Assembly (NCBI RefSeq): GCF_025151535.1
Contig: NZ_CP102288.1
Location: 1,183,501-1,247,500, forward strand
Length of the DNA: 64,000 nucleotides
Source: Segatella copri DSM 18205
Lineage (GTDB): Bacteria > Bacteroidota > Bacteroidia > Bacteroidales > Bacteroidaceae
Reading direction: 5' to 3'
Part shown: positions 22,451 through 35,532 of the stretch, in pieces
Layout of the letters: every line of letters starts with the position of its first letter
Position numbering within the stretch: position 1 is the first letter of the stretch
Translations under genes and position numbers: made by a program
The notes under the pieces: generated by a model
Seen by the model: only the letters and a program-made list of their open reading frames with translations
Told to the model about the DNA's origin: nothing
Database searches by the model: none

Positions 22451-25030
22451 ATGAACTTAGATAGAATAGAACAGCAGGCTGGTCATCTGCCAGCTTACCA
22501 GATAGCCGACTCAGTCAATGAAGCATTGATGGAGTCGGCTAACCTTGTTATTACAGCTCCTCCTGGAGCCGGTAAATCTACCCTCCTCCCGCTCACCATT
22601 CTGCGGGGCATGAGTGATCAGGCATTGGAAGGCTTCATCCATGATCATCTTAAAAGTCAGGGTAAGATTCTGATGCTCGAACCGCGCCGCCTGGCTGCTC
22701 GCCAGATAGCCGAACGGATGGCACAGATTCTGGGAGAACCCGTGGGCAAAACCATCGGCTATCGGGTAAGATTCGAAAGCAAGGTTTCGGATGATACACG
22801 CATCGAAGTCCTTACCGAGGGCATTCTCACCCGAATGCTGGTCAATGATGCTACACTCGAAGGCGTTTCGTGCCTCATCTTTGATGAGTTTCATGAGCGC
22901 AGCATCAATTCCGATCTGGCGTTAGCGCTGGCCCGGCAAACACAGGAAATCATCCGCCCCGACCTGAAGCTCATTATCATGTCAGCAACAATCGATGCTT
23001 CTATCATCTGTCAGGCACTTCAGGCTCCGCTTATCGAGAGTAAAGGCAAAATGTTTCCGATAGAAACCGTTTATGCAGACCACGACATCGACAGATATCA
23101 GGTAGCACAGGAAATGGCAGCCACTATCTGTCAGGCTTTCAGAAACCAGGAAGGTGACATTCTTGCCTTTCTGCCGGGACAGGGAGAAATCATGAAATGC
23201 GAAGAACTGCTTCGCTCTGTCCTGCCCTCAGCCACTCTTTACCCGCTATACGGTAACCTCTCGCCAGAAAAGCAACGGCTCGCCATCGCTCCTTCCAAAC
23301 CGGGTGAACGAAAAATCGTACTGGCCACTCCTATCGCCGAAACTTCTCTCACCATCGAAGGAGTAAGAATCGTTGTGGATTCCGGACTCTGCCGAAAACT
23401 GGTTTATGATGCCCGTACAGGCTTGAGCCATCTCGAAACCGTTCGTATCAGTCAGGACATGGCTACGCAACGAAGGGGGCGTGCGGGCAGAATCACATCA
23501 GGCGTATGTTACCGGCTTTGGACACAGACCTCGGAACATCTGATGCCAGAACAACGGCTGCCCGAAATACTGGATGCAGATCTCTCTTCGATGGTTCTCG
23601 ACATTGCAGCTTTCGGGGAAAACAAACCGGAACTGCTGCCTTGGCTCACCCTTCCTCCCAAGGGCAACCTCGTATTGGCACAGCAACTTCTTATGTCGCT
23701 CAACGCTCTCACTCCTGATCATGATGTTCACGCTCTCAGTGGCAGCATCACCGAAGAAGGCAGCAGAATGGCTCAACTTCCTTGTCATCCGCGCATTGCC
23801 AAGATGATGATCAGCAGCGATTCTCCGGCGATCCAAGCCCTGGCCTGCGACATTGCTGCTCTGCTGGAAGAGAAAGACCCGATGGGCGAAAATGAAGATT
23901 CAGACATGACGCTCCGCCTTTCTATCCTCCGTTCCGCACGCTGCAAGAAAAATCTGGGGCGTTGGAACCGTATCGCTCAGATTGCCCAGGAATACAGGAA
24001 GATGCTGCGTATCAGGGAAGACAACGAGCCAATTGATGCTGAGGAAGTGGGCCATCTCATCGCCCTAGCCTACCCTGAGCGCATCGCCCATGCCACCGAC
24101 CATGCGGGCAACTTCAAGATGTCGAATGGCAACACGATTTTCATCGACCCGTGCGACAGCATGGCAGCAAACGAATGGCTTGCCATCGCATCACTCAACC
24201 TCGATTCAACCTCATCATCCAGTTCTGGGCAGGGACGGAAAGGAAGGGTATTTCTCTCAGCCCCCGTCAACTGGAAGAACCTGCCGGCACAAACCTGCGA
24301 GAATATTTCATGGGACAGCAAAGCGCTGGCAGTAAAGATGCAACAGGAAACACGGATAGGAGCGCTCATCATAGACAGCAAGCCGATACAAAATGCCAAC
24401 CGAGAGACTGTTTCTAATATTATCTGTGAAGCTGCCAGAAAAGACGGACTCAGTATGTTCGATTGGAACGAATCGGTTCATCGTCTGCAACAGCGCGTGG
24501 CGCAAGTAGCTGAGTGGCATCCGGAGTTGGAGATTCCCGACCTGTCAACAGAGCATCTCCTGACAACAGCCCAAGCGTGGCTCCCTTTCTATCTCGAAGA
24601 AGGTGGTAAGATGAAGACTTCTGTTACTGAGCTGAAGAAACTCAACCTGTGCGAAATCCTTTGGAACATCCTTCCTTATGAGCTTCAGCAGGAGATAGAC
24701 CGCCTTGCTCCCACCCACATCCGTGTGCCATCGGGCAGCAATATCCGCATCGATTACCGCCTGGGGGCCGAAGCCCCGGTTCTGAGTGTGCGGCTTCAGG
24801 AGTGTTTCGGAATGACATCAACTCCCACTGTCGATGCAGGCAGACAGCCCCTTCTGCTTGAGTTGTTATCTCCCGGTTTCAAGCCAGTTCAACTTACTCA
24901 GGATCTCGCAAGTTTTTGGCAAGGCACTTATTTCGAAGTCCGCAAAGAACTGAAGCGCCGATACCCTAAGCATTTCTGGCCGGAGAATCCGTTAGAGAGC
25001 CAGGCCGTGAGAGGTGTCAAACGATGGTGA
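22451..25030 (+). CDS. hrpB: ATP-dependent helicase HrpB
   Basis: HrpB is a DEAH-family helicase whose cellular substrate is poorly known. The 859-aa protein has Walker [10 protein letters not shown] (36-44), DEFH box FDEFHERS (about 142-149), SAT motif and a motif VI with [10 protein letters not shown]2 and OB-like regions and the HrpB-specific C-terminal domain follow, ending in the usual [10 protein letters not shown]. Length is normal. Its last 14 bases overlap the convergent DUF5675 gene, which marks the left edge of the accessory island. Confidence 0.95.
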
Positions 25031-25577
25031 TCCAGATGCTCTCGCCTCGGTCTCTCGCCGCCGTGATGGCATTGACGAGGCGATGCAGCCAGATGCGGGA
25101 GTTTACCACCATGCCTCGGAGTTTGTTTTCGCCCGGCAGGATGCAGCCCTGCGTATCATCGGGGTAGTTACCGGCATGGATGCGGATGCCCTCAAAGCCA
25201 GGAACGCCCTGCAGCAGGGGCAGCCACTGCTTGAATCTCGGCGACTTGGTGATGAGCACGGGATAAGTGCCCTCGGGTATGGCAGTCTTGCCCTTCATCT
25301 TCTGCGCCTTCTTCTCCGACACTCGCCCCAGACGCACATTCTCCTCTTGGGGCAACAGGGTGATTCCCAGCAGGTTGCGCCACGTTGGCTCCAGGGTATC
25401 GCAGAAGTAGTGCTCCCCGTCCAGTTTGCCCACATCTACCACATGGCAGAAGCTGCGCTTCTGGTCCTTATTGAGCGTATAGTTCACCTTGCGCTCCACC
25501 TCCTCGTCCTTCAGGATATACATACGCCCTATGGTGTAAGTATTCTGCTTAGCTATTCTTTTGAGTACGATTTCCAT
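25017..25577 (-). CDS. DUF5675 family protein, L,D-transpeptidase-like motif
   Basis: The 186-aa protein matches DUF5675 (conserved [20 protein letters not shown] and [13 protein letters not shown] at about 106-150). It contains a [12 protein letters not shown] segment, a His and a Cys spaced as in L,D-transpeptidase or murein-handling folds; that similarity is my reading, not an established activity. In related Bacteroidota cassettes an N-acetylmuramoyl-alanine amidase takes this position, so a peptidoglycan role is plausible. It starts 8 bases after the VirE-like gene and is probably translationally coupled. Its 3' end overlaps hrpB by 14 bases. Confidence 0.75.
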
Positions 25578-25585
25578 AATTGTTT

Positions 25586-28057
25586 CTATTTAGATTCTTT
25601 TTTGAGAAAACATAGCTTGCGATAAAAACTGTAATTACCGTAATTGTAATAGCAATGGCTGTTATCAGCTTTGTCATTACCAGCATTAACGCCTTGTTCG
25701 CCTGCCTCCACTTTCACGATATACTTTCTGAACACCCAGGTGGCTATCATCCGTCGGGTGCCCTTGGTATCCAGCCCCAAGTCGCTTCTCAACTGCTCAG
25801 CCTGCTGATAAGAGAACTCATTTGGCAGAAGTTGCAGCATATTGGAAGGCCCTCTTTTGCTCGACTTCACTCCCTCCTGCTCCGCCTTCACGATAGCATC
25901 TCGGAAGAATCTCATCTTGCAGTACAGGTCATACTGCTCGCTCCAGCGCACAAACTCCTCTATCTCGGATTCCCATTGGCAACCATTCGCCACATAGAGC
26001 ACGCAAGCCTTCAGATAGGCAATGACATTGGCTCTGAACGAGAGGTTCTCGTAAACCCTGTCTTGGCTCATACGGGCAAAGTCGGCATTCTCCTCTTTCA
26101 GCTTCTGTGCCAAGGCGAAAGCCTCAGGGCAATTGATAGTACCAGAAGCCATGTTAAGATGCTCGATATAGGGTTTTAAGTTCTCTCTGAATGTGTCATC
26201 GTATGTGCCATAGACAGGCATCTCGGCTCCTATCTCACGCTCTGGGATAGTACAGAAGTTGATTCTGGAGATAGGACCATCGGTCAATACCTTGGAGAAA
26301 TATCGGATACCCTTGTTGATGGTGGTCGAGGCATTCCAGTTAAATCGGATGGTTACTCGCTCCGTAACACTCTGCGTGCCCACTCGGGTTTGTCCATATT
26401 GATTACCAGGGTCGAAGGCGAGGCACATGATACGAAACTGCTGGTTGCCAATGCCCCTTAGGTTATCAAACTGGTCTATCTCGTTGAGAGCAGTATAGAG
26501 GAAATGCTCCTGCGCCTCAGCGGTACGCATCACGAAGGCAGGGTTGGTCATATCGGCGTCTATCTCCTGGATCACGAGATTTTCAGGTCGCTTACGCTTA
26601 TCCTTGTTAGCACCTTTTCTTGTCACCTCATCCTTCCACTCCTTCTCTCGTTTCAGGTTATCTTTGTCTCGTTTTCTGATATCTTCCATAATCAGGTTGA
26701 TAGGCATCTGCACGCAGTTCTTTCCTGCGCCCGTACCAGCTAAGAGACAACACATTAGCGTAGCCTCATGCTCCACATTGTCGATGTAATTAAAATAGGT
26801 GCGGCAGAGGTGGGTGGCTAGCGGAGGAAAGATGGCATGGGCTACGGCAGGCTTATAGATATCCGGTGTCTGAGACACGAGGAGCTCCACGAGCTTAGGC
26901 AGCTTCTTCGGCATCTCGGGCGGAGCGGGGTAATCATCTTCACAGTTAGGAGTTTGGAGTGAGGAATTAGGAGTTGAGAGAGTCGCTTGCTTCTCTGCTT
27001 GCGCATTGATGCGGATCACATCTCTAGAGAATGGCTTCGAACTGTCTCCATATTTCTCATAGAAGTCATGGATCAGCTGCTGGCAGTCACGCTCTTGGGC
27101 GAAGCTAGGCATCTTCACTGCCACTACTCTTCTCAGCTCCTCTTCGCTCATCACCCTGCTCGCTCCTGCGCTCATGATGGCAAGAAGTGAGGAGTGGCGA
27201 GAGCCCTCGGTATCGATATTCACATTCTTCAGTCCTGCCGACTCCGTGAAGAGGTCGAAGGCTATCAGGCTCTTCTCGCTGGCGGTACCAGAGGTTGGTA
27301 ATCCGTCAGGAATCTGATAGCCTCCAGCAGAGCCATGAGAAACAGCAGGATTGCCGTTAGAGCCCGAAAGTCGATTTGTTTGAACATTCTGTTGAGTATT
27401 TACGGTTGATGGTTTGATATTGATTTCGTAAGGCTGGTTAGCCTTGCCTCTGCCGTCGATGGTGAGACCACGCTTCAGATAAGCCTCTCTGCGAGCCTTC
27501 AGTTCATCGGCAGGAAGCACGGCATACCAGTCCTTGGAGCGATAGATCTCCGAGTCCTGATCCGTGATAAAGAGGATTCTCTCTGGGGTGAAGCAACTCT
27601 CATCGCAGGGCACGCCAAGTGCCTTACAATACGCTCTCTGCGTCTCCTCGATAGTCATACCTATCGGCATTCGGATGTCGATGTGGAGTTTCTTACGAGC
27701 CGAGTATTCCAGATGCAGTAGCATTCCCTTCCAGATGGAGTCGCTGCAATTCAGCTGCCTTGCCATTTCGATGGCGATACCCACCAGTTCCTTATCGTCG
27801 ATGTCGATGGTGGTCTGGAAGAGAAAACTCGTAGGGTCAGCATCCTTCTGCGAGCGATGATTCTTGAGGAATCGGCTGTAGTGGCCGCAGCGGAAGGGCA
27901 TCAGCCCCTTCAGTTTGTCATTGCCCCCACGTATCTGCTCCACCATATCGTGGAGCCAAGGCTGAGCTATCAGCTTGTCATATTCAGCCAGGGGCAGGCA
28001 GCTGGCGCTGCCCTTATTGCCCCCACGCTGAGGATTCATTGCAATAAAGTGGTTCAT
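25586..28057 (-). CDS. VirE / BT4734-like and DUF3987 protein
   Basis: This 823-aa protein combines a BT4734/VirE-type N-terminal domain (about residues 45-215), which resembles primase/polymerase-like regions, with a DUF3987 ATPase-like domain (about 370-760). It has a P-loop-like GTGAGKNC (about 437-444). A Ser/Asn/Gly-rich linker (about 215-270) separates them. Such proteins are frequent in Bacteroidota mobile cassettes, sometimes labelled helicase or mobilisation protein; the biochemical function is unproven. The C-terminus is low complexity ([13 protein letters not shown]). It is the middle gene of a leftward operon. Confidence 0.8.
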
Positions 28058-28091
28058 GCTTAATTATACATTATTAATTATACATTATCTA

Positions 28092-28502
28092 TTACTCCTT
28101 ATAGTCCTCCCACTCCACATTTTCCTTGAAGGGCTTGATAGCCTTCACCATCTCCTGGTGCTCACCCTTGAGACAGCGCAGAATCTCCGCCTTGCTCATG
28201 TCCTTGGAGAAGGCATAGTTCACTTGCACGGTTCGCTTGCTAGTGCGCACCACCCCATGCTTGGTCTTGAGAATCTCCGTGAAGGGCTTCTCTCGCTTGC
28301 CCTGCACATAAGGCTTGAAGTCCACCCAGTCGCCTCGCCCATTCTCGCCACCCGAGAATATCATCCTGCCCCTGATCACCTGCGGCTTGTCACTGATTAC
28401 CTCCGTCTCGTTCCATGGCGCCTTGCGCACTGATACGTTACCATTCTCCTCGGTGATCACAGCACCGTCTACCTTTACTGCATTGATTAGTCTTGTAAAC
28501 AT
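28092..28502 (-). CDS. Small conserved protein upstream of VirE-type genes
   Basis: I place the start at ATG 28502 (136 aa, beginning MFTRLINAVKVDGAVIT), since the open frame upstream would need a TTG within the leader. The protein has an N-terminal beta-rich part (about 1-85) and a helical C-terminus with a charged segment (SKAEILRCLKGEHQEMVKAI). I recognise it only as a usual companion of VirE/DUF3987 genes. The fold looks HU-unrelated and could be a single-strand-binding or accessory protein; no function is known. It ends 34 bases before the VirE-like gene. Confidence 0.6.
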   Translation of the reverse strand: MFTRLINAVKVDGAVITEENGNVSVRKAPWNETEVISDKPQVIRGRMIFSGGENGRGDWVDFKPYVQGKREKPFTEILKTKHGVVRTSKRTVQVNYAFSKDMSKAEILRCLKGEHQEMVKAIKPFKENVEWEDYKE

Positions 28503-28544
28503 ATTATATGTATTAAAAGATTGAGAACCCGCAATACGCAAAGT

Positions 28545-28581
28545 CCCCGCAACCAGACGCGCTGTGCATCTGATTACGGGG
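28545..28581 (-). promoter_or_regulatory. 5' leader hairpin of the VirE operon
   Basis: On the minus strand the 13-base arms 28581-28569 and 28557-28545 pair fully (two G-U pairs) around an 11-base loop. The arm starts almost at the predicted transcription start, so the message would begin with a strong stem-loop. It may regulate or protect the transcript. Confidence 0.6.
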
Positions 28582-28582
28582 G

Positions 28583-28590
28583 CAAAGGTA
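28583..28590 (-). promoter_or_regulatory. -7 box of the VirE operon promoter
   Basis: TACCTTTG on the minus strand; the -33 region is a poor match (GTTTC). It would start the transcript in the leader hairpin just downstream. Confidence 0.6.
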
Positions 28591-28611
28591 CTAAGAGTTT
28601 TTGAAACTTAC

Positions 28612-28664
28612 CTGCCACGGGGTTGCCCCGTCCATGTGCCACGGGGTAGCCCCGGGGTAGGCAG
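28612..28664. repeat. Two-unit GC-rich palindromic repeat
   Basis: TGCCACGGGGTTGCCCC and TGCCACGGGGTAGCCCC occur 25 bases apart, each able to fold on itself (ACGGGG with CCCCGT). They stand out in an otherwise AT-rich region just upstream of the VirE operon promoter. Confidence 0.65.
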
Positions 28665-28690
28665 GAAAGAATTACGCAACATATTAAATA

Positions 28691-29149
28691 TCAATCCATT
28701 ACATCTTTTATCTTTTCTATGAATCGCTCTATGCTTTTTTGGTCCATTCCTTTAGAATTGCCCTTTCGCAAGATTTCCTTGTTCATATTCCACAATTCTC
28801 CGAATGTAACCCAAGGTTGGTTGATGCTCAATTTATCAGAGATGAGAGAAGCCAACACACCTTTTTCAGAGATCGACATTCTCTTAGGCTGATAACAATC
28901 GTCTAGATAATCGTGTTCTTGTAGTTTATTGAGTATTTCGATAGCTTCCGGCGTATTGAGTTCATCAGGCAGTTTTAGCTCCTCCTGTCTGCCCTTAGCT
29001 ACCCAAGCAGGTTCTTCCTTCAAGCTTATCTCTCGATTGCCAGGACAACCTTGCAAATTATCACCATTGCCCATAACAAACGAGCAACCTATAAACACAG
29101 GAACTCCCAGTCCTATCAATTCAGGCAACTGGGACATTGAAAATTCCAT
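28691..29149 (-). CDS. Hypothetical island protein
   Basis: I do not recognise this protein. From ATG 29149 it is 152 aa (MEFSMSQLPELIGLGVPVF). The frame stays open to 29215, but that part lies inside a terminator-like hairpin and would need a GTG start. The N-terminal third is hydrophobic; the C-terminal part (about 60-152) is helical and resembles a winged-helix-like C-terminal module found in several Bacteroidota accessory proteins (LPDELNTPEAIEILNKLQEHDYLDD...). It is AT-rich and sits between the VirE leader and the triple hairpin. Confidence 0.5.
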   Translation of the reverse strand: MEFSMSQLPELIGLGVPVFIGCSFVMGNGDNLQGCPGNREISLKEEPAWVAKGRQEELKLPDELNTPEAIEILNKLQEHDYLDDCYQPKRMSISEKGVLASLISDKLSINQPWVTFGELWNMNKEILRKGNSKGMDQKSIERFIEKIKDVMD

Positions 29150-29180
29150 TTCGTTTTCATTTTTAAATGTTATTTTATCG

Positions 29181-29248
29181 AGAAAAAGCCCATTCTCATC
29201 CCGAGAAGGGCGCACACCACGATGGTGTCAAGGTGAAGCGTCTTCACC
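29181..29248 (-). ncRNA. Three consecutive stem-loops ending in a U-run
   Basis: Reading the minus strand: GGTGAAG-ACG-CTTCACC (29248-29232), then ACACCA-TCG-TGGTGT (29228-29214), then a 9-pair stem with one bulge (29211-29188), then TTTTT. Spacers are 3 and 2 bases. The last stem plus T-run is a good terminator; the two perfect hairpins before it suggest a small structured RNA or a strongly structured 3' end of the upstream gene. No coding start is convincing across it. Confidence 0.6.
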
Positions 29249-29280
29249 CGAAAATTTCTTAAGATTCATCGGATTTAAAT

Positions 29281-29691
29281 TTAGTTAGTTAATAATTCAG
29301 ATTGTTCATTCACCATTTTGATTGCGATGTCAGCTCTACATCCATACAGCAGTTTGAACTCATCTGTGATTTCAGTCAAAGCATCAATCTTCTCTTGCTT
29401 ACTTTTCCCATTAGGTTCAGCTTTCAATTCCTTGTCATATTGGTCTAGATAATATGCTATGAGAAAAGCCATTTTGTCTAGCGTATCAGGAGAAGCAGTA
29501 GAATTACACTGGCACAGATTGTTAAAGGTAGAGTCGCCCATTCCAAAATCTCTCTTCACTTTATATGCATTCAACACACCTCTACTGACCAAGGAGTCGA
29601 GGTGATTTCCCAACTTCTTGATGAGCTTTTCTCTCAGATTCTTTAGATAAGTATCTAGCTTGCTTTTTCCTTTTTTATTTACCTGTTCCAT
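29281..29691 (-). CDS. Hypothetical protein with HTH-like segment
   Basis: This 136-aa, lysine-rich protein is not one I recognise. A central segment (about residues 43-75, YKVKRDFGMGDSTFNNLCQC) looks like a helix-turn-helix in which a short recognition helix follows a GMG turn, so DNA binding by a small regulator is possible. The rest is predicted helical. Start is ATG at 29691, preceded by AT-rich sequence. It lies immediately upstream of the triple stem-loop, which may be its terminator. Confidence 0.5.
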   Translation of the reverse strand: MEQVNKKGKSKLDTYLKNLREKLIKKLGNHLDSLVSRGVLNAYKVKRDFGMGDSTFNNLCQCNSTASPDTLDKMAFLIAYYLDQYDKELKAEPNGKSKQEKIDALTEITDEFKLLYGCRADIAIKMVNEQSELLTN

Positions 29692-29846
29692 TATTATTAT
29701 TTATTATGAATTGTAAAATTCTTAATAAATAATGAAACCTGCAAATTTGTAGTCAAGCCAAGACTGGGAAGTCAGGCTTATTTATTAACGTTTTTGTATT
29801 CTGTTAACTTTCTTGATGGAAATTTTGAGCGAAATAACTCAATAGA

Positions 29847-29861
29847 TGTGCACAGCACATT
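29847..29861. repeat. Palindrome ATGTGCACAGCACAT, copy 1
   Basis: Six-base perfect arms around ACA. The same sequence with three more bases (TAG before it) occurs at 30844-30858. This could be an operator or a remnant of an element end. Confidence 0.5.
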
Positions 29862-30023
29862 GTCGTTAATCCTTTATAAAACTCCTTATCATAGGTTACT
29901 GCTGGTGCACCTCTTTATTTACCACTTGATAGCTCGCCCCACCATGGGTAATTATTATATATATTTATTTGTAATCACTGCTTATTATAAATTCAAGTTC
30001 CATTACTATGTCTTTCTATAAAG

Positions 30024-30088
30024 CCAAAAAAATCCCGCACATCGACAAAGTTTAAAATACGTCGATGGCGGGATTAATCTTTGTTGCT
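30024..30088 (-). ncRNA. Orphan AbiF-like structured RNA
   Basis: On the minus strand GCAGCAACAAAG leads into a 15-pair stem with one bulged base (30075-30061 with 30046-30031) and then T7. The upstream Abi gene RNA at 34552-34604 shares the GCAGCAACAAA start, the ATCCC-rich stem and the GGGA-TT-GCTTT-TA tail. No Abi gene follows it. It could alternatively be just the terminator of the small secreted-protein gene ending at 30208, but that would not explain the shared 5' sequence. Confidence 0.5.
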
Positions 30089-30207
30089 GCATCAATATAA
30101 GATTAGTTTCTCATATAGCAACATTTATCACCAAATATTTTTCATTTTGCCCTTATTTTTCTTGGTTTCTTACATTTTCAAGTCAATAAGGTTTTCTTTA
30201 CAATAAA

Positions 30208-30585
30208 TCAATCGTCTTTCTCTAATTTTAATCCTTCTTTAATCTCTTCATCATTTGCAACATATTTCTTCAAGATAAAATGATATACATTTTGGTTTCC
30301 AATAGTGATAGGATAAGCGTTTACAAACTCCCATCCTTTGGAAGTCATATAGTTAAGCACACCTACCATAGTATTAAACTTTAGAGGCTTACCATCTTCG
30401 TCTCTAAGTTTATATGTTTCAGATAGTGGCTGTCCTAGATCAACAGAAACTTTGACTTTTGTACTAAACATACTTGTTTTACCAAGCAACTCGATATACA
30501 CTACATGTTTGTCTCCAATCTTATTCTGTGAAAAACCACTTAGTGAAGACAACACCAGCAAAAATGTTAAAACTAATTTATTCAT
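30208..30585 (-). CDS. Small secreted protein of unknown function
   Basis: This 125-aa protein has a signal peptide (residues 1-19, ending GFSQ), so it is exported, with no lipobox. The mature part (about 105 aa) is mixed alpha/beta, with the run MVGVLNYMTSKGWEFVNAYPI that resembles small Bacteroidota periplasmic proteins in which a short domain follows MTSKGWEF. I cannot name a family with confidence. It has its own consensus promoter and is followed by the orphan stem-loop. Confidence 0.55.
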   Translation of the reverse strand: MNKLVLTFLLVLSSLSGFSQNKIGDKHVVYIELLGKTSMFSTKVKVSVDLGQPLSETYKLRDEDGKPLKFNTMVGVLNYMTSKGWEFVNAYPITIGNQNVYHFILKKYVANDEEIKEGLKLEKDD

Positions 30586-30626
30586 AATTTATCATTTAAA
30601 GTTAGCATCAATAGCAATGCTGCCCA

Positions 30627-30657
30627 CAAAGGTACGAAATGTTTTTGAAACAACCAA
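30627..30657 (-). promoter_or_regulatory. Promoter of the small secreted-protein gene
   Basis: Minus-strand TTG (30657-30655) is followed after 20 bases by TACCTTTG (30634-30627). The leader is about 40 bases. Confidence 0.65.
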
Positions 30658-30785
30658 GGATTTTTGAAGATTATTTGTATTACGGTAATTCCTTTTCTTG
30701 TTAGAATGTTAATGATAAGAGCAAGTCACGTTTACCTATCGTTGGGGAAAGGACTTCTAGCAAAAGTGTGCATTTTCATAGTAAA

Positions 30786-30815
30786 GGAGCTGGCAGCTCA
30801 TCAGCCACCAGCTCC
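30786..30815 (-). terminator. Possible terminator after the SHOCT gene
   Basis: GGAGCTGG and CCAGCTCC are perfect 8-base arms; the spacer can itself fold. T-runs are weak on both sides, so confidence is moderate. Confidence 0.45.
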
Positions 30816-30843
30816 ACCTACTTTTTGAAAAAAAATACGGTAG

Positions 30844-30858
30844 ATGTGCACAGCACAT
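30844..30858. repeat. Palindrome ATGTGCACAGCACAT, copy 2
   Basis: The second copy of the palindrome seen at 29847, 1 kb away, in the gap before the SHOCT gene 3' end. Confidence 0.5.
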
Positions 30859-30870
30859 GGTTGTATGTCA

Positions 30871-31950
30871 TTACCCCAGCAATTTAGCTTTTTGTTTTTC
30901 AAATTCCTCCTCTGACAATATACCTTGAGCTTTTAAATTTGCCAACTTGGTAAGTTCATCAGCTACACTGACAGGAGAAGGAACCGATTCTTCATCCTTA
31001 CTAAACTTCTTCTGATTATCTGCAATATCAAGAATGACAGAGAATATATCTTTGATGCCAGTAACCTCCTTCATCAACTCTTCATAACGCATATTGTCAG
31101 CTGTATTCTTTGTCTTAAGGATTACACCAGAATATATAACCAATCTGATATTAGGATTAGCAGTATCTTTCTTCAAGATTTTAATTACCATTTTACTAAC
31201 TTCCTTATTCTGCTTAGCTTTAGCTGTTGAGCCACCTACAATGGCACCAACTCCACCAAACAAAAGACCACCAACAACAGCACCACCCAAAGATTTGTTG
31301 TAAACATCATTACCATTCTCCTCATAACTAACGCTTACCAAATCTGAATACAACAAGAAGTAACTTTTGTTTGGTGTTAAAATGAAAACATACTGATTTA
31401 CATCATCGGTAATGAAAGCATAGTCGTTGTATGCACGCAATATAGGGTTACTTGATAACAATCGTTTGCCACATTTTTCTTCATAATCACCAGCGATACT
31501 AAATGTCTTTCGATTTATTTTTCCAGCATTTCCGCTCACTCTCAGCACTTTTCTTTGATTGGCATCCAAAACTGCAATAAATGAATCTGCATCAACCACT
31601 TCTGTTTTAACGAAATCATTCACCACTTCTTGTGTTACATTACTAGTTGTAGAAGAGCCTATAGTTATTGTCTTCTGCTGATTATTGAAATAGAGCATAA
31701 GATCTTCATCTCCATGCTTGCTATCATATACCAGTTTGTCACTAAAGTTGTTTTGTTCCTCCTCTCGTGCGCTCTTCTTTGACTGTTCTATAGCAGCCAT
31801 AATACACATTACCACACCAATCACAATTCCAGCAATAGGAATGACTGTTAAAGTACCAGCATCACTGTTATAGGATAACAGAGCCAATACAGCAAAAATG
31901 ATGGTCACAACAACAGACCCGCCTAAACTTAATTCTTCTTTCTTTTTCAT
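30871..31950 (-). CDS. Membrane protein with C-terminal SHOCT domain
   Basis: The 359-aa protein has two N-terminal membrane helices (about residues 10-55). A cytoplasmic body (about 75-325) includes a small Gly-rich hydrophobic stretch (SLGGAVVGGLLFGGVGAIVGG, about 219-240, possibly a third membrane or glycine-zipper segment). A short C-terminal SHOCT domain (LTKLANLKAQGILSEEEFEKQKAKLL) follows. SHOCT modules are short helical add-ons that mediate oligomerisation. The function is unknown. It is part of a leftward pair with the VanZ-like gene 12 bases upstream. Confidence 0.65.
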   Translation of the reverse strand: MKKKEELSLGGSVVVTIIFAVLALLSYNSDAGTLTVIPIAGIVIGVVMCIMAAIEQSKKSAREEEQNNFSDKLVYDSKHGDEDLMLYFNNQQKTITIGSSTTSNVTQEVVNDFVKTEVVDADSFIAVLDANQRKVLRVSGNAGKINRKTFSIAGDYEEKCGKRLLSSNPILRAYNDYAFITDDVNQYVFILTPNKSYFLLYSDLVSVSYEENGNDVYNKSLGGAVVGGLLFGGVGAIVGGSTAKAKQNKEVSKMVIKILKKDTANPNIRLVIYSGVILKTKNTADNMRYEELMKEVTGIKDIFSVILDIADNQKKFSKDEESVPSPVSVADELTKLANLKAQGILSEEEFEKQKAKLLG

Positions 31951-31962
31951 ACTGTTTTATGT

Positions 31963-32412
31963 TTAAACCGATTTCATAAAAACTACTAATGGAACTATAT
32001 AACATATCAAGTCATATACATCAAATGTACCAGAACACCACCCTATCAGTTGCATAAGTTCCAATGCAATTGCAGATAGAGGCAAAGGTAGAGCTAGCAT
32101 TAATCGAATCTTGCGACTTTGATACTTAGTTGTTATATACATTCCAAGCAAATATGACGCAGTCCATAACCCTGCAGGCAAGCTATTTATTACAAAGCTT
32201 GGCAAAGTATACAACTGAGCCTTTTCTCTAATTCCATCGAGATAGGGCATACCACCCATTTCTTCAATTATCGAAAACATCAAAAGACATTTGGGGCGAA
32301 ACAACAAATAGATAACTCCGCCGATGGAAATCAAGAGGATAACCTCTCCCCATTCCCCTAATCGTCTTTTATACAACCTCTGTAGCATTATACATTTATA
32401 TGATAAACTCAT
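31963..32412 (-). CDS. VanZ-like membrane protein
   Basis: This 149-aa (or 141-aa from ATG 32388) protein has four to five hydrophobic helices and a C-terminal ALELMQLIGWCSGTFDVYDLICY segment; the E-Q-then-D-D pattern matches VanZ-like proteins, whose role in teicoplanin resistance is poorly defined. The ATG at 32412 overlaps the 3' end of the truncated metallopeptidase frame by 17 bases, which suggests the two genes were once translationally coupled. It precedes the SHOCT gene by 12 bases. Confidence 0.6.
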   Translation of the reverse strand: MSLSYKCIMLQRLYKRRLGEWGEVILLISIGGVIYLLFRPKCLLMFSIIEEMGGMPYLDGIREKAQLYTLPSFVINSLPAGLWTASYLLGMYITTKYQSRKIRLMLALPLPLSAIALELMQLIGWCSGTFDVYDLICYIVPLVVFMKSV

Positions 32413-32558
32413 TCAACTCATTCTTATACTTCTCCCATAATGGCAAATGCTTATCCAACACTGCCTTGAACTGGGTATCATGATTTTTCGACACAATATG
32501 AGCCAGTTCATGTACCACCACATACTCTATGCATGGCTGAGGGTGCTTATGGGCGCAA
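32396..32558 (-). pseudogene. 3' remnant of a YgjP/DUF45-type metallopeptidase gene
   Basis: On the minus strand this frame reads AHKHPQPCIEYVVVHELAHI and continues SKNHDTQFKAVLDKHLPLWE to a stop at 32396. That is the zinc motif HELAH and C-terminal region of YgjP-like (M48-related, DUF45) metallopeptidases. The rest of the gene, about 180 codons including the usual KSRWGSC region, is missing: the frame runs directly into the GC-rich interspersed repeat, after which an unrelated nuclease gene ends. It is too short to be active. Confidence 0.75.
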
Positions 32559-32660
32559 ACCTGTCGCCCTGTAAGGGCGCCTTGCTGATTGCCATTATAC
32601 CCAGGGCGATGCCCTGGGCTAGGGGCTTCTGCCCTTTCAGGGCGTATGGGGCTAGCCGAA
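32559..32660. repeat. GCCCTGAAAGGGC interspersed repeat, second locus
   Basis: This block contains CGCCCTGTAAGGGCG, a palindromic ACCCAGGGCGATGCCCTGGGC, then CTGCCCTTTCAGGGCG, that is the element at 16902-16990 in reverse orientation with a small change. It truncates the metallopeptidase gene on one side and abuts the end of the Rpn-type nuclease gene on the other. Confidence 0.75.
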
Positions 32661-32681
32661 AGGGTGCAGCCGAAATATACA

Positions 32682-33605
32682 CTACGCCTGAAGCGGCTTC
32701 AATTCTTCTTCTGTCAATCCAGTAGCCTGCATGATTTGCGACCAAGACATACCCATTGCCAACAAGTTACGGGCTATTGTCAAACCTTTAGATAATTCAC
32801 CTTCTGCTCTACCTTCTGCTCTACCTTCTGCTCTACCTTCTGCTCTACCTTTAGCAATTCCCTTTTCCTCGCCTTCAACATACGAGCCATAAAGGCCGGA
32901 GTAGTAATCATCAACAGCCTTAATACTTTCATCGTATTTTTCCTGCTCCTCACTACTCAAGCAACGAACATCCGCCAATTTAGCAAGATGATCGAATATC
33001 TTTTTCTGTGCCGTAAAAGGCAATCTTTCCAATACTTCCATATATTTCAATACATAAATCCATTTTTCAAAACCAGTCTCGCATTCTTCCTCACTCTTAT
33101 CAAAGAAAGGAAGAGAAAGATAGATGAAACGAAGCTTATCAGAAAACATGGAATCGCTAGACTTCTCCCTCAAAGCTACGTCTGTCCTAAACTTTGTCAC
33201 CTCATGCTCCTTTGGCATAAAATTCATGATGCAAACCACATAAACCGGTACAAACTGGTATAAAATAGCTGTGCGGACACCAGCTTCATCAAATTTCTTG
33301 CGTTGGGCAACAAAAGCCTTACTAGCATAATAGATGGAACGATTCACAAAGAAAGGTACCCATCTGTTCTGCATCTCAACGATGAAATGCTTGTCATCGT
33401 CGGTAACACAATAGATGTCAAAGATGCAGCCACGGAGATCATTACTATCTCCAAGCTGTTCCTTATCCTTGAATGTTACGTCCTTGATTTGAAACTCACC
33501 TTCAAACAAGTCGTTCAAAAAATTAATCAGCAAGTCCTTGCTGAACTCTTGACCGAAGAGACGCTTGAAGCCCCAATCGGTAAAGGGGTTGATGTATCTA
33601 CCCAT
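32682..33605 (-). CDS. Rpn / PD-(D/E)XK nuclease family transposase-like protein
   Basis: The 307-aa protein belongs to the Rpn/TIGR01784 (PDDEXK_2) family: N-terminal MGRYINPFTDWGFKRLFG, followed by a nuclease core with D and HFIVEMQNRW (the ExQ form of the catalytic motif, about residues 75-84). Rpn nucleases cut DNA and affect recombination; some limit phage. The C-terminal part holds four tandem GRAE repeats (about 255-270) then a short helix. The four 12-base DNA repeats (32800-32847) could change number and alter length. It ends next to the interspersed repeat. Confidence 0.85.
   Translation of the reverse strand: MGRYINPFTDWGFKRLFGQEFSKDLLINFLNDLFEGEFQIKDVTFKDKEQLGDSNDLRGCIFDIYCVTDDDKHFIVEMQNRWVPFFVNRSIYYASKAFVAQRKKFDEAGVRTAILYQFVPVYVVCIMNFMPKEHEVTKFRTDVALREKSSDSMFSDKLRFIYLSLPFFDKSEEECETGFEKWIYVLKYMEVLERLPFTAQKKIFDHLAKLADVRCLSSEEQEKYDESIKAVDDYYSGLYGSYVEGEEKGIAKGRAEGRAEGRAEGRAEGELSKGLTIARNLLAMGMSWSQIMQATGLTEEELKPLQA
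32800..32847. repeat. Four exact 12-base tandem repeats in the Rpn gene
   Basis: CCTTCTGCTCTA is repeated four times on the plus strand, encoding GRAE units on the minus strand. Repeat number changes keep the frame, so length variants are expected. Confidence 0.85.
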
Positions 33606-33758
33606 AAATTATCAATTTAGATTCTGTAAATCTGCCGCAAAGATAAACTTTTATTTCGAAACATGCAAGAAAATCGGGGAAAAGTTTAGAAAAAGTTGCT
33701 GGCAAGGGGAAAATGTTTATAAGTGCGCGAAAATATAAGAAAGATGAAATGGTATCCG

Positions 33759-33947
33759 ATTACAATTTCAGTTATTACAGTTTTTTCCTGAGGGGTATAA
33801 GGGTTTGAAGGTAGTAACAATCTGTTACTACAAATATTTATATATAAATATATATATTTATATATTTATATATACTTTTCTATACTTACATTTTAAAAGC
33901 GTGATATTGGGTCAAAATAAAACTGTAATAACTGAAATTGTAATTTG
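33759..33947. repeat. 26-base inverted repeat similar to the VirE gene end
   Basis: The left arm begins ATTACAATTTCAGTTATTAC and the right arm is its reverse complement. Twenty-five of 31 bases also match the minus-strand VirE-like gene end near 25616-25646 by my alignment. The arms are about 140 bases apart and enclose the AT-rich palindromes. Confidence 0.5.
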
Positions 33948-34066
33948 TAATCGATTTTTTAGCGGTATCGAGATGCATACTTTCATTGCCCCTAAAACTA
34001 TGACTATCTCATCACAAAGCTATGAGTTATGACCCGCAAAACGATGAGTTATTTTCTTTAACACAA

Positions 34067-34136
34067 TATGGTAGAAATGTTAATGGAATTTCACATAACT
34101 CTGCAAGGTGATTTTTGGTGGTTTAGGAAAAATGTG
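34067..34136 (+). repeat. 56-base direct repeat, copy 1 (decayed promoter region)
   Basis: Positions 34067-34122 are identical to 34717-34772, the region upstream of smalltalk. Beyond them the copies diverge gradually; here the -7 box has become TAGTCCGA, so this copy is probably not a promoter any more. Confidence 0.8.
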
Positions 34137-34156
34137 TTAGTCCGAATACCAAACTG

Positions 34157-34672
<516 letters not shown>

Positions 34673-34716
34673 TAACGTAAAAAGTTCTAATTTCCATGTT
34701 TTTTCCCGGCAAAATC

Positions 34717-34772
34717 TATGGTAGAAATGTTAATGGAATTTCACATAACTCTGCAAGGTGATTTTTGGTGGT
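34717..34772 (+). repeat. 56-base direct repeat, copy 2 (upstream of smalltalk)
   Basis: Identical to 34067-34122 (offset 650 bases). It includes the -33 box region of the smalltalk promoter, so the duplicated unit is promoter DNA rather than coding DNA. Confidence 0.8.
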
Positions 34773-34795
34773 GTAGAAAAAATGTAGTACCTTTG
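34764..34795 (+). promoter_or_regulatory. Promoter of the smalltalk-HU module
   Basis: TTTG (34764-34767) is followed after 20 bases by TACCTTTG (34788-34795). The leader to smalltalk is about 45 bases. Confidence 0.75.
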
Positions 34796-34842
34796 CACCT
34801 GTAATCAAGAACATTATTAATCACTAAAAAAACTAGAAAATT

Positions 34843-34941
34843 ATGAAGAAAGAAACTTGGAAACAGATTTTTCAGATTGTACTCACAATCTTGACGGCGC
34901 TCGGCACTACCCTCGGAGTAACATCATGCATGGGGGCGTAA
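34843..34941 (+). CDS. Smalltalk protein
   Basis: The 32-aa protein reads MKKETWKQIFQIVLTILTAL then a short GTTLGVTSCMGA tail. The MKKETWK start, single hydrophobic helix and TSC near the end match the Bacteroidota 'smalltalk' family, found next to HU-like proteins and VirE cassettes. It probably spans or inserts into the membrane; the Cys near the end is family-typical but not a normal lipobox since it lies at the C-terminus. Function unknown. It is too short to be found by length-based gene calling. Confidence 0.85.
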   Translation: MKKETWKQIFQIVLTILTALGTTLGVTSCMGA

Positions 34942-34977
34942 CAATTCATTATTAATCACTTTAAAACAAAAAGAACT

Positions 34978-35532
34978 ATGGCAACAAAAGGAACATTGAA
35001 GTATCGTAAAGTAACTCGCACTCCTCAGAGCGGACCTAACAAGAACAAGCAGATGTATTACGCAACTGCTGTAACTGACCGTGAGATGAACTTCGAGGAG
35101 TTTGTAACTCACATCTCGGAGCACAACTCTCCTTACAGCCGAGGCACCGTACACGGCGTATTGATGGATACGCTCGACTGCCTGCAGGAGCTCATCCTCG
35201 ATGGCAAGAGCGTACGTCTCTCCGACCTGGGTCTCTTCTCCATCGGTATGACATCACGTGCCGAGGCTACCAAGGACAAGGTATCGGCAGCGAGCGTGGA
35301 GGGCGTACACCTCATCCTGCGTAACACCAAGACTTGGAGCAACGCTGAGCTGCGCAAGAAATGCCGCATAGAGGAGTATGACACCTACGGCAACACTACC
35401 GACGAGGGCTCTGTGCCGGGCGACGGCAAGGACAACGACGGAGGCGACAGCTCTACCCCTAGCGGCGGCTCTACCCCTAGCGGCGGCGACAGCGGCACTA
35501 CCGCTCCTGACGGCGGCGATGGACTGGAGTAA
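34978..35532 (+). CDS. HU-family DNA-binding protein with Gly/Ser/Asp-rich tail
   Basis: The 184-aa protein has an HU/IHF-like (DNABII) domain (about residues 1-125; VTDREMNFEEFVTHISEHNS, LSDLGLFSIGM) as in the Bacteroidota HU variants next to smalltalk. It ends in a low-complexity, acidic tail of GGDSSTPSGG repeats (about 145-184). HU proteins bend and wrap DNA; this group is tied to mobile cassettes, so it may organise element DNA rather than the chromosome. It starts 36 bases after smalltalk and ends before a terminator. Confidence 0.85.
   Translation: MATKGTLKYRKVTRTPQSGPNKNKQMYYATAVTDREMNFEEFVTHISEHNSPYSRGTVHGVLMDTLDCLQELILDGKSVRLSDLGLFSIGMTSRAEATKDKVSAASVEGVHLILRNTKTWSNAELRKKCRIEEYDTYGNTTDEGSVPGDGKDNDGGDSSTPSGGSTPSGGDSGTTAPDGGDGLE

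Follow-up and report, generated by a model that had tools for sequence, protein, structure and literature searches.

What kind of element lies between hrpB and a cluster of small open reading frames (ORFs), read by eye as rpmG/rpmB, in Segatella copri DSM 18205? We analysed a window of 64,000 nucleotides (contig NZ_CP102288.1, positions 1,183,501 to 1,247,500) of this genome, which has 3.33 Mb on a single contig. A sequence-only reading had seen here, at 25017..35532 of the window, an accessory island with VirE, DUF5675 and a leader hairpin on the left, smalltalk and HU on the right, and defence-like cargo between. Our comparisons partly support its interpretation. The island is probably one member of a horizontally mobile chromosomal cassette family of Bacteroidaceae, with two divergent arms around exchangeable cargo; a patchy, relocating, cargo-swapping family with phage-type parts is well supported.

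All backbone parts named by that reading were confirmed. The first arm, on the minus strand, carried an 823-amino-acid VirE-type protein (25586..28057), followed by a DUF5675 protein of 186 amino acids (25017..25577; Pfam PF18925, 4.2e-30, 104.4 bits against a curated cut-off of 26.7), whose stop overlapped the end of the hrpB ORF by 14 bp. The second arm, on the plus strand, carried smalltalk (34843..34941, 32 amino acids; NF033879, 1.7e-14) and the HU-related DNA-binding protein HU_rel (34978..35532, 184 amino acids; TIGR01201, 6.7e-22). The window VirE itself had no match in Pfam, NCBIfam, PHROG, PADLOC or the PDB sequences. DUF3987 was matched by four of 16 aligned relatives and BT4734-like_N by one of the 16, so the name holds by relationship.

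The same backbone recurred in the genome. Four close sisters of VirE (70–72% identity; five copies in all) were each followed by a DUF5675 gene, 67–73% identical to that of the window, and with five copies the pairing is beyond chance. HU copies in three of the loci (L052, L053 and L054; loci carry L numbers, genomes G numbers) were 77% identical to the window HU over 137–140 amino acids. A more distant VirE, in L063, had the same two-armed layout. The distribution of VirE was patchy, with 43 of 120 genomes positive in a genus sample (E ≤ 1e-60) and 88 of 301 in a family sample (E ≤ 1e-30). A profile of 16 VirE proteins retrieved 293 relatives from genome contigs, the best 80 of which were kept. 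L115-L194 partly cover places already in L079-L108, and the L079-L108 copies were left out of the layout, relocation and murein counts.

Among 37 loci with at least 8 kb visible upstream of VirE, HU/smalltalk lay divergently upstream in 24 and on the same strand in one (L125). The gap between the divergent arms measured 2.6–23 kb. Separated, divergent arms are thus the usual layout, and the proposal that the two halves had been pushed apart at the window has to be dropped. It is borne out that these modules belong to a single accessory system, which recurs and encloses cargo. In L052, L053 and L054-L055 the HU copy was divergent to VirE and 5 to 23 kb away. For the fourth sister (L056-L057) the next HU/smalltalk was 19 kb off and of another type, not firmly assigned to the cassette. 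Over 36 loci the identities of VirE and HU correlated (r = 0.43, 0 of 2000 permutations; host kinship not removed).

Several observations concern variants of this layout. Between the VirE arm and the next HU/smalltalk of L056/L057 we noted by eye three near-identical transposase-like ORFs of 409 amino acids (L056:12644-13873, L057:365-1594 and L057:6928-8157) and a 655-amino-acid ORF resembling a tetQ-type ribosome-protection gene (L057:8442-10409). Four HU-type genes of 221–224 amino acids, 96–100% identical and accompanied by smalltalk, were found at L057:12566, L063:7490, L064:7653 and L066:7417; of these four stretches as fetched, L063 alone had a VirE match. At L061:5065-12140 the layout was two-armed, with a separate CHC2-like primase and a helicase replacing the single VirE and with a DUF5675-like start where the murein gene would lie (both by eye). 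At L071:9610-12099 an HU/smalltalk fragment adjoined one of the genome's four tyrosine-integrase matches.

To follow the unit between genomes, we compared 83 pairs of loci whose VirE proteins were at least 90% identical, 52 of them with comparable right flanks. A right-flank gene was shared in four of the 52 and two genes in one. As a control in 19 genomes, the neighbours of tsaD (ORFs outside tsaD only) were shared in 171 of 171 pairs; cassette right flanks in these genomes were shared in four of 120 pairs, and in one of 35 among the close pairs. This indicates that the unit changes its chromosomal site from one species to another, in line with the mobility that the sequence-only reading had supposed. 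In best-segment identities, which favour the conserved half of VirE, VirE scored higher than TsaD in 42 of 54 close pairs (mean 92.4%, versus 89.3% for TsaD). Two cassettes of this genome (L052 and L053), placed 2.65 Mb apart at contig positions 141 kb and 2.79 Mb, had 93–98% DNA identity over most of ~10 kb, and the homology stopped at both arms.

Empty sites completed this picture. In S. copri Indica a cassette lay between porX and lysO (names by eye), and in DSM 18205 a cassette followed lysO immediately; the genes to either side were collinear in the two strains, and the empty sites were reciprocal. At L197:3310-4399 (G000, ~206-207 kb) we recognized by eye only remnants of two cassette ends, the HU-side upstream stretch and a Bro-N C-terminus. 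The same unit is therefore found at different chromosomal sites together with empty sites, as expected of a mobile element. Around the window's own site, profiles of VirE, DUF5675, HU and smalltalk found nothing in 9–15 kb around hrpB (G042, the best match to the hrpB/cinA query in the 120-genome genus sample, and G063) or around the rpmG cluster (G042, G063, G016 and G024). The same gene order in all relatives, with no cassette elsewhere, would have marked ordinary core DNA; it was not found. As hrpB and cinA were on different contigs in G042 and G063, the window site also looks like a synteny break.

The cargo varied from cassette to cassette. Both loci had large cargo in 21 close pairs (VirE identity of at least 90%), and 16 of these had no cargo gene of 200 or more amino acids in common. 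The Rpn nuclease of the window was 97.7% identical in DNA to that of L053 over 915 bp, compared with 74–77% for VirE DNA. A three-gene group of L132 (a PLD nuclease, an unscanned ORF and an N6_N4 methyltransferase) recurred in L063 with 57–63% identity, although the VirE genes of L063 and L132 could not be aligned by BLAST. Cargo is thus traded between cassettes.

The cargo was enriched for defence genes, in line with the sequence-only reading. At 1e-10, PADLOC matched 246 families in the cargo and 53 in the flank control, 108 proteins each, with overlapping models, some spurious ORFs kept by the simple ORF caller and some backbone ORFs remaining in the cargo. The cargo set comprised 146 ORFs, less 15 core ORFs, dereplicated to 108; the control was 108 length-matched flank ORFs drawn from 245 dereplicated ones, and among its matches listed were a type I and a type II methyltransferase, with one match count each. 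Among the first 25 of 70 Pfam families in the cargo were N6_N4_Mtase (7), ResIII (4), Peptidase_M78 (4), DNA_methylase (2), MjaI (2) and one each of the EcoRII, DpnII and BsuBI/PstI endonucleases. Single scans in named loci confirmed type III, EcoRII, BsuBI/PstI, MjaI, DpnII and NgoFVII-like genes. Ten other cargo ORFs gave TPR (2), WYL, HIRAN, GIY-YIG, M78, AAA (2) and no match (2). By similarity to confirmed restriction-modification (RM) seeds plus one type IIG enzyme, RM genes were present in 14 of 26 gaps. Since the seeds came from the cargo, the zero for RM in the flanks is no independent control; the PADLOC comparison is.

A murein-type gene directly followed VirE in 63 of the 73 loci with 1.5 kb visible downstream: DUF5675 in 43, a P5-like gene in 11, both in four and M15 in five. 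Of the ten loci scored without one, five had such a gene upstream instead: a GH24 lysozyme in four and a P5-like gene in one. L183, scored as none, had DUF5675 in another scan, which leaves four loci. The P5-like and M15 profile members were picked by eye, and two representatives each were tested with PHROGs or Pfam. PHROG endolysin families were matched by both representatives scanned from each set (M15, GH24 and P5-like); some murein proteins also matched PHROG head/tail families, apparently through the murein domain. DUF5675 thus occupies a slot that other phage endolysin-type families fill in relatives, in keeping with the earlier suggestion that it may replace the usual amidase, and the exchange of unrelated murein enzymes in the same slot is the best argument that it acts on the wall. 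This slot replacement supports a murein role at the level of sequence. H134 and C145 of DUF5675 were nearly invariant. Relatives of the protein occurred in 166 phage records, with 35–40% identity among the best 25 listed, including crAss-like phage proteins, some of them annotated as L,D-carboxypeptidase/transpeptidase. Unlike these, the window gene is chromosomal and lies directly after VirE.

The promoter region of the VirE arm was equally distinctive. Directly behind a TAnnTTTG box, which we take to be a Bacteroidota promoter motif, lay a 13–16-bp hairpin and a U-rich tract; in the window the box is TACCTTTG and the element, found with covariance model R1, spans 28517..28590 on the minus strand. 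The stretch 28540-28690 had a folding z-score of -3.9, with 0 of 200 shuffles as stable. Across 13 aligned leaders (L052, L053 and L055 being near copies), double changes occurred in 8 of 13 pairs. R1 was significant at five places in the genome, once in each cassette, and the next site had E = 0.8. As these five were training rows, the news is the specificity. Among the 80 loci plus the window, R1 found ten sites at E < 1e-4, one of which (L172) was outside the training set. A model-free scan gave 11 box-hairpin sites in 180 kb upstream of VirE, none on the opposite strand and three in 1.1 Mb of flanks; in a looser first scan 13 of 81 boxes upstream of VirE had a hairpin, versus three of 56 in flanks. 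Rfam gave no match at E ≤ 1 in 28480-28720, and a known RNA family was rejected as the leader's identity. We read the leader as a terminator-like attenuator; it would also be compatible with a 5' stabiliser or a priming site. The start of the smalltalk promoter (34785-34807) repeated the first half of the VirE leader hairpin (28571-28593; GTAATCA) in inverted orientation, 91% over 23 nucleotides. Cross-talk of the two arms through this repeated half is possible.

VirE may be a primase-helicase-like protein. D85 and D87 in its N-terminal half were invariant in 43 of 43 sequences and, as a sequence pattern, fit a primase-polymerase; the C-terminal half had GTGAGK, a Walker A motif. Among the first 50 structure matches of the VirE model (overall pLDDT 73, the predicted local distance difference test score) were an archaeal primase, the LigD polymerase, CAPP and an SCCmec helicase. 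These primase-polymerase fold matches were recurrent and weak, all with E of 0.3 or worse amid unrelated folds, and are suggestive only. PMC8211822 describes VirE N-terminal domains as primase-polymerase domains, VirE_N primase-polymerases from mobile elements and CAPP_B from Bacteroidetes. These proteins resemble the window protein in joining a VirE-type N-terminal part to a helicase-like part; they differ in that the window's VirE subfamily mostly escapes Pfam, as the single BT4734-like_N match shows.

The window copy is resident, and part of its cargo has decayed. Its cargo stretch (29.0–34.5 kb) was AT-rich, with a G + C content of 0.32–0.44, versus 0.47–0.53 in the VirE arm. All of the following ORFs are on the minus strand. 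Small backbone ORFs accompanied VirE: HP149 (28092..28541), with a 61% identical copy before VirE in L056; HP174 (28691..29215), with a conserved C-terminal part and relatives in L052, L053 and L055; and HP136 (29281..29691), with a distant relative in L056 (27% over 134 amino acids). In the cargo we found a 125-amino-acid ORF with a signal-peptide-like start by eye and no Pfam family above cut-off (30208..30585), a 359-amino-acid membrane protein with a SHOCT domain (30871..31950; PF09851, 6.1e-9; phrog_888, 4.6e-28) and a 149-amino-acid membrane ORF, weakly VanZ-like (31963..32412; PF04892, 0.011, below cut-off). The Rpn/PDDEXK_2 nuclease (32682..33605; PF12784, 3.7e-55; TIGR01784, 1.5e-28; phrog_3300 transposase, 9e-21) has the annotation ‘recombination-promoting nuclease/putative transposase’. 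The nuclease and membrane genes of the sequence-only reading thus stood; its Abi and metallopeptidase genes proved to be remnants, since the Abi_2/AbiD ORF is only the C-terminal part of AbiD (34157..34648; PADLOC AbiD, 6.2e-19) and the metallopeptidase is a 41-amino-acid ORF resembling a C-terminus (32396..32521; a lone ORF, family by eye). Palindromic repeat sequence at 32540-32700 seems, by eye, to break the latter.

An abiF RNA (34557..34593, minus strand; Rfam RF03085, 46.9 bits, cut-off 37) was recognized with the Abi remnant. In the AbiF system an abiF RNA adjoins an Abi_2 gene (PMC12373285); the window retains the RNA beside a truncated protein and so lacks the full toxin. A 69-bp direct repeat on the plus strand bracketed the Abi block (34067..34135 and, upstream of smalltalk, 34717..34785; 97% identity). 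At L062:6169-6685, an uninterrupted version elsewhere in the genome, the Abi/abiF-RNA block was absent and its flanks were joined with a single 69-bp repeat, beside a lone smalltalk copy. Rpn was common to the window, L052 and L053, and Abi pieces to the window and L052; no RM system was recognized in the window, L052 or L053.

At the cassette ends we considered terminal inverted repeats. TTTTTACC heptads flanked L052 and L054-L055, their orientation at one end being opposite to that at the other; L053 had them at one end. They were rejected as termini, the same heptads being present at many ordinary gene ends. In the genome these heptad repeats had 15 exact sites, at the ends of many unrelated genes and often beside GGGGACCAGCGATGG... 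palindromes.

A number of results weigh against the reading of a horizontally mobile cassette family. The genome's four tyrosine-integrase matches all lay outside the five islands (serine recombinases and relatives were outside this search). Inspection of both ends of three cassettes showed neither target-site duplications nor inverted termini, and the repeats at cassette ends are generic. VirE had no match in plasmid records or in 50,697 phage records and was found in two viral contigs only, and residence of the cassette in phages or plasmids was rejected on this ground. HU/smalltalk was not seen in 12 of the 37 loci with at least 8 kb visible. Besides the window, R1 found nine of 80 loci, eight of them training rows. 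Five of the 21 close pairs did share a cargo gene of at least 200 amino acids, and no complete defence system was recognized in the window. The VirE model had no significant match to PDB structures. The DUF5675 model (pLDDT 83) had no PDB match at E ≤ 0.001 and so lends no support to the L,D-transpeptidase annotation of the phage records.

These results bear unequally on the alternatives. A strict phage satellite would be induced by a helper phage, replicated by VirE, packaged in helper particles and released faster by its own murein enzyme. The replication-like gene, the murein families whose representatives match PHROG endolysins, the defence cargo and the Bro-N/KilAC antirepressor next to the VirE gene of L053 (with relatives in L052 and L055) agree with this, and a promoter-proximal hairpin suits conditional switching. 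Yet the islands hold no tyrosine integrase, VirE is nearly missing from the viral records, and PHROGs found no terminase, head or other prophage structural gene among ten window proteins (the Abi remnant, smalltalk and the relatives' cargo not included); we regard a strict satellite as doubtful. A passive origin is a tentative possibility: defence islands that do not move by themselves would be passed on when cells exchange DNA naturally and similar backbones, or intergenic repeats dispersed in the genome, recombine by homology, with Rpn nucleases perhaps helping. The missing tyrosine-type recombinase, the dispersed repeats at the ends, the Rpn-family cargo in three cassettes and the exchange of cargo between copies in one genome all fit it, whereas such islands would not need replication- and lysis-type genes kept adjacent in many loci.

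Defence genes cluster in genomes, and it could be argued that the backbone works as a defence of its own, by abortive infection or lysis, with VirE as the sensor, the murein enzyme as the killer and the RM genes as mere hotspot neighbours. A primase-like protein, a murein enzyme and a tiny protein would fit such a suicide module. We think this unlikely, as close copies rarely share right-flank genes, so that the unit moves, and defence families are more frequent within the gap than in the flanking DNA. Ordinary core DNA or a decayed prophage, to which the worn cargo of the window could point, is highly improbable: presence is patchy, there are five copies, none was seen at the window site in the relatives examined, the window proteins scanned include no structural phage gene, and the hrpB/rpmG site, right-flank and empty-site results contradict it.

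Known systems share some features with the cassettes. P4-like satellites and phage-inducible islands reportedly have defence hotspots, and like the cassettes, where VirE is the candidate, they combine a replication-type gene with an exchangeable bay of defence cargo on an accessory element. Such variable cargo was seen in the cassette's relatives, the window copy having only Rpn and the Abi remnant. The cassettes differ from P4-like satellites in the lack of a tyrosine integrase or attachment site of their own and of a packaging gene among the window proteins scanned, and in having their own endolysin-type gene and two divergent arms with smalltalk and HU. Bacteroides DUF3987, HU, smalltalk and amidase genes are annotated in PMC10434189, the same gene names as in the cassette backbone; amidase-smalltalk-HU trios also occurred in this genome (L069, L072 and L073). 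The open-licence literature searched yielded no account of a two-armed unit that carries cargo.

The sequence comparisons themselves show that the unit recurs, has two arms, changes its location, exchanges cargo, has a slot for endolysin-type genes and possesses a conserved leader. For the mobile cassette family that we favour, they suggest the following course. One arm would read outward through the leader hairpin, small ORFs, the primase-helicase-like VirE and the phage-type murein gene; the other, with smalltalk and the HU-like protein, would read in the opposite direction, and the bay between them would trade genes among cassettes, often whole RM systems. The hairpin just behind the promoter may keep the VirE arm mostly shut until a trigger arrives, upon which VirE would copy the cassette. 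HU would pack or bend the DNA, the murein enzyme would help it exit the lysing cell, and the host may be repaid by the defence cargo that it carries. Transfer probably relies on external machinery, either a phage or recombination between homologous cassettes, perhaps aided by Rpn-type cargo.

With considerable reservation, we suggest that these cassettes could represent a new class of Bacteroidaceae phage satellites, integrase-free and two-armed, with a hairpin-gated replication-lysis arm and an interchangeable endolysin of their own, shuttling RM systems between species. The cassette family itself would be a vehicle for part of the RM diversity in gut and rumen Prevotella-type bacteria, and families annotated merely as VirE, smalltalk, HU-related or DUF5675 would gain a suggested role. 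The divergent VirE-murein and HU-smalltalk arms with the leader hairpin may serve as a marker for new defence systems in the cargo bay.

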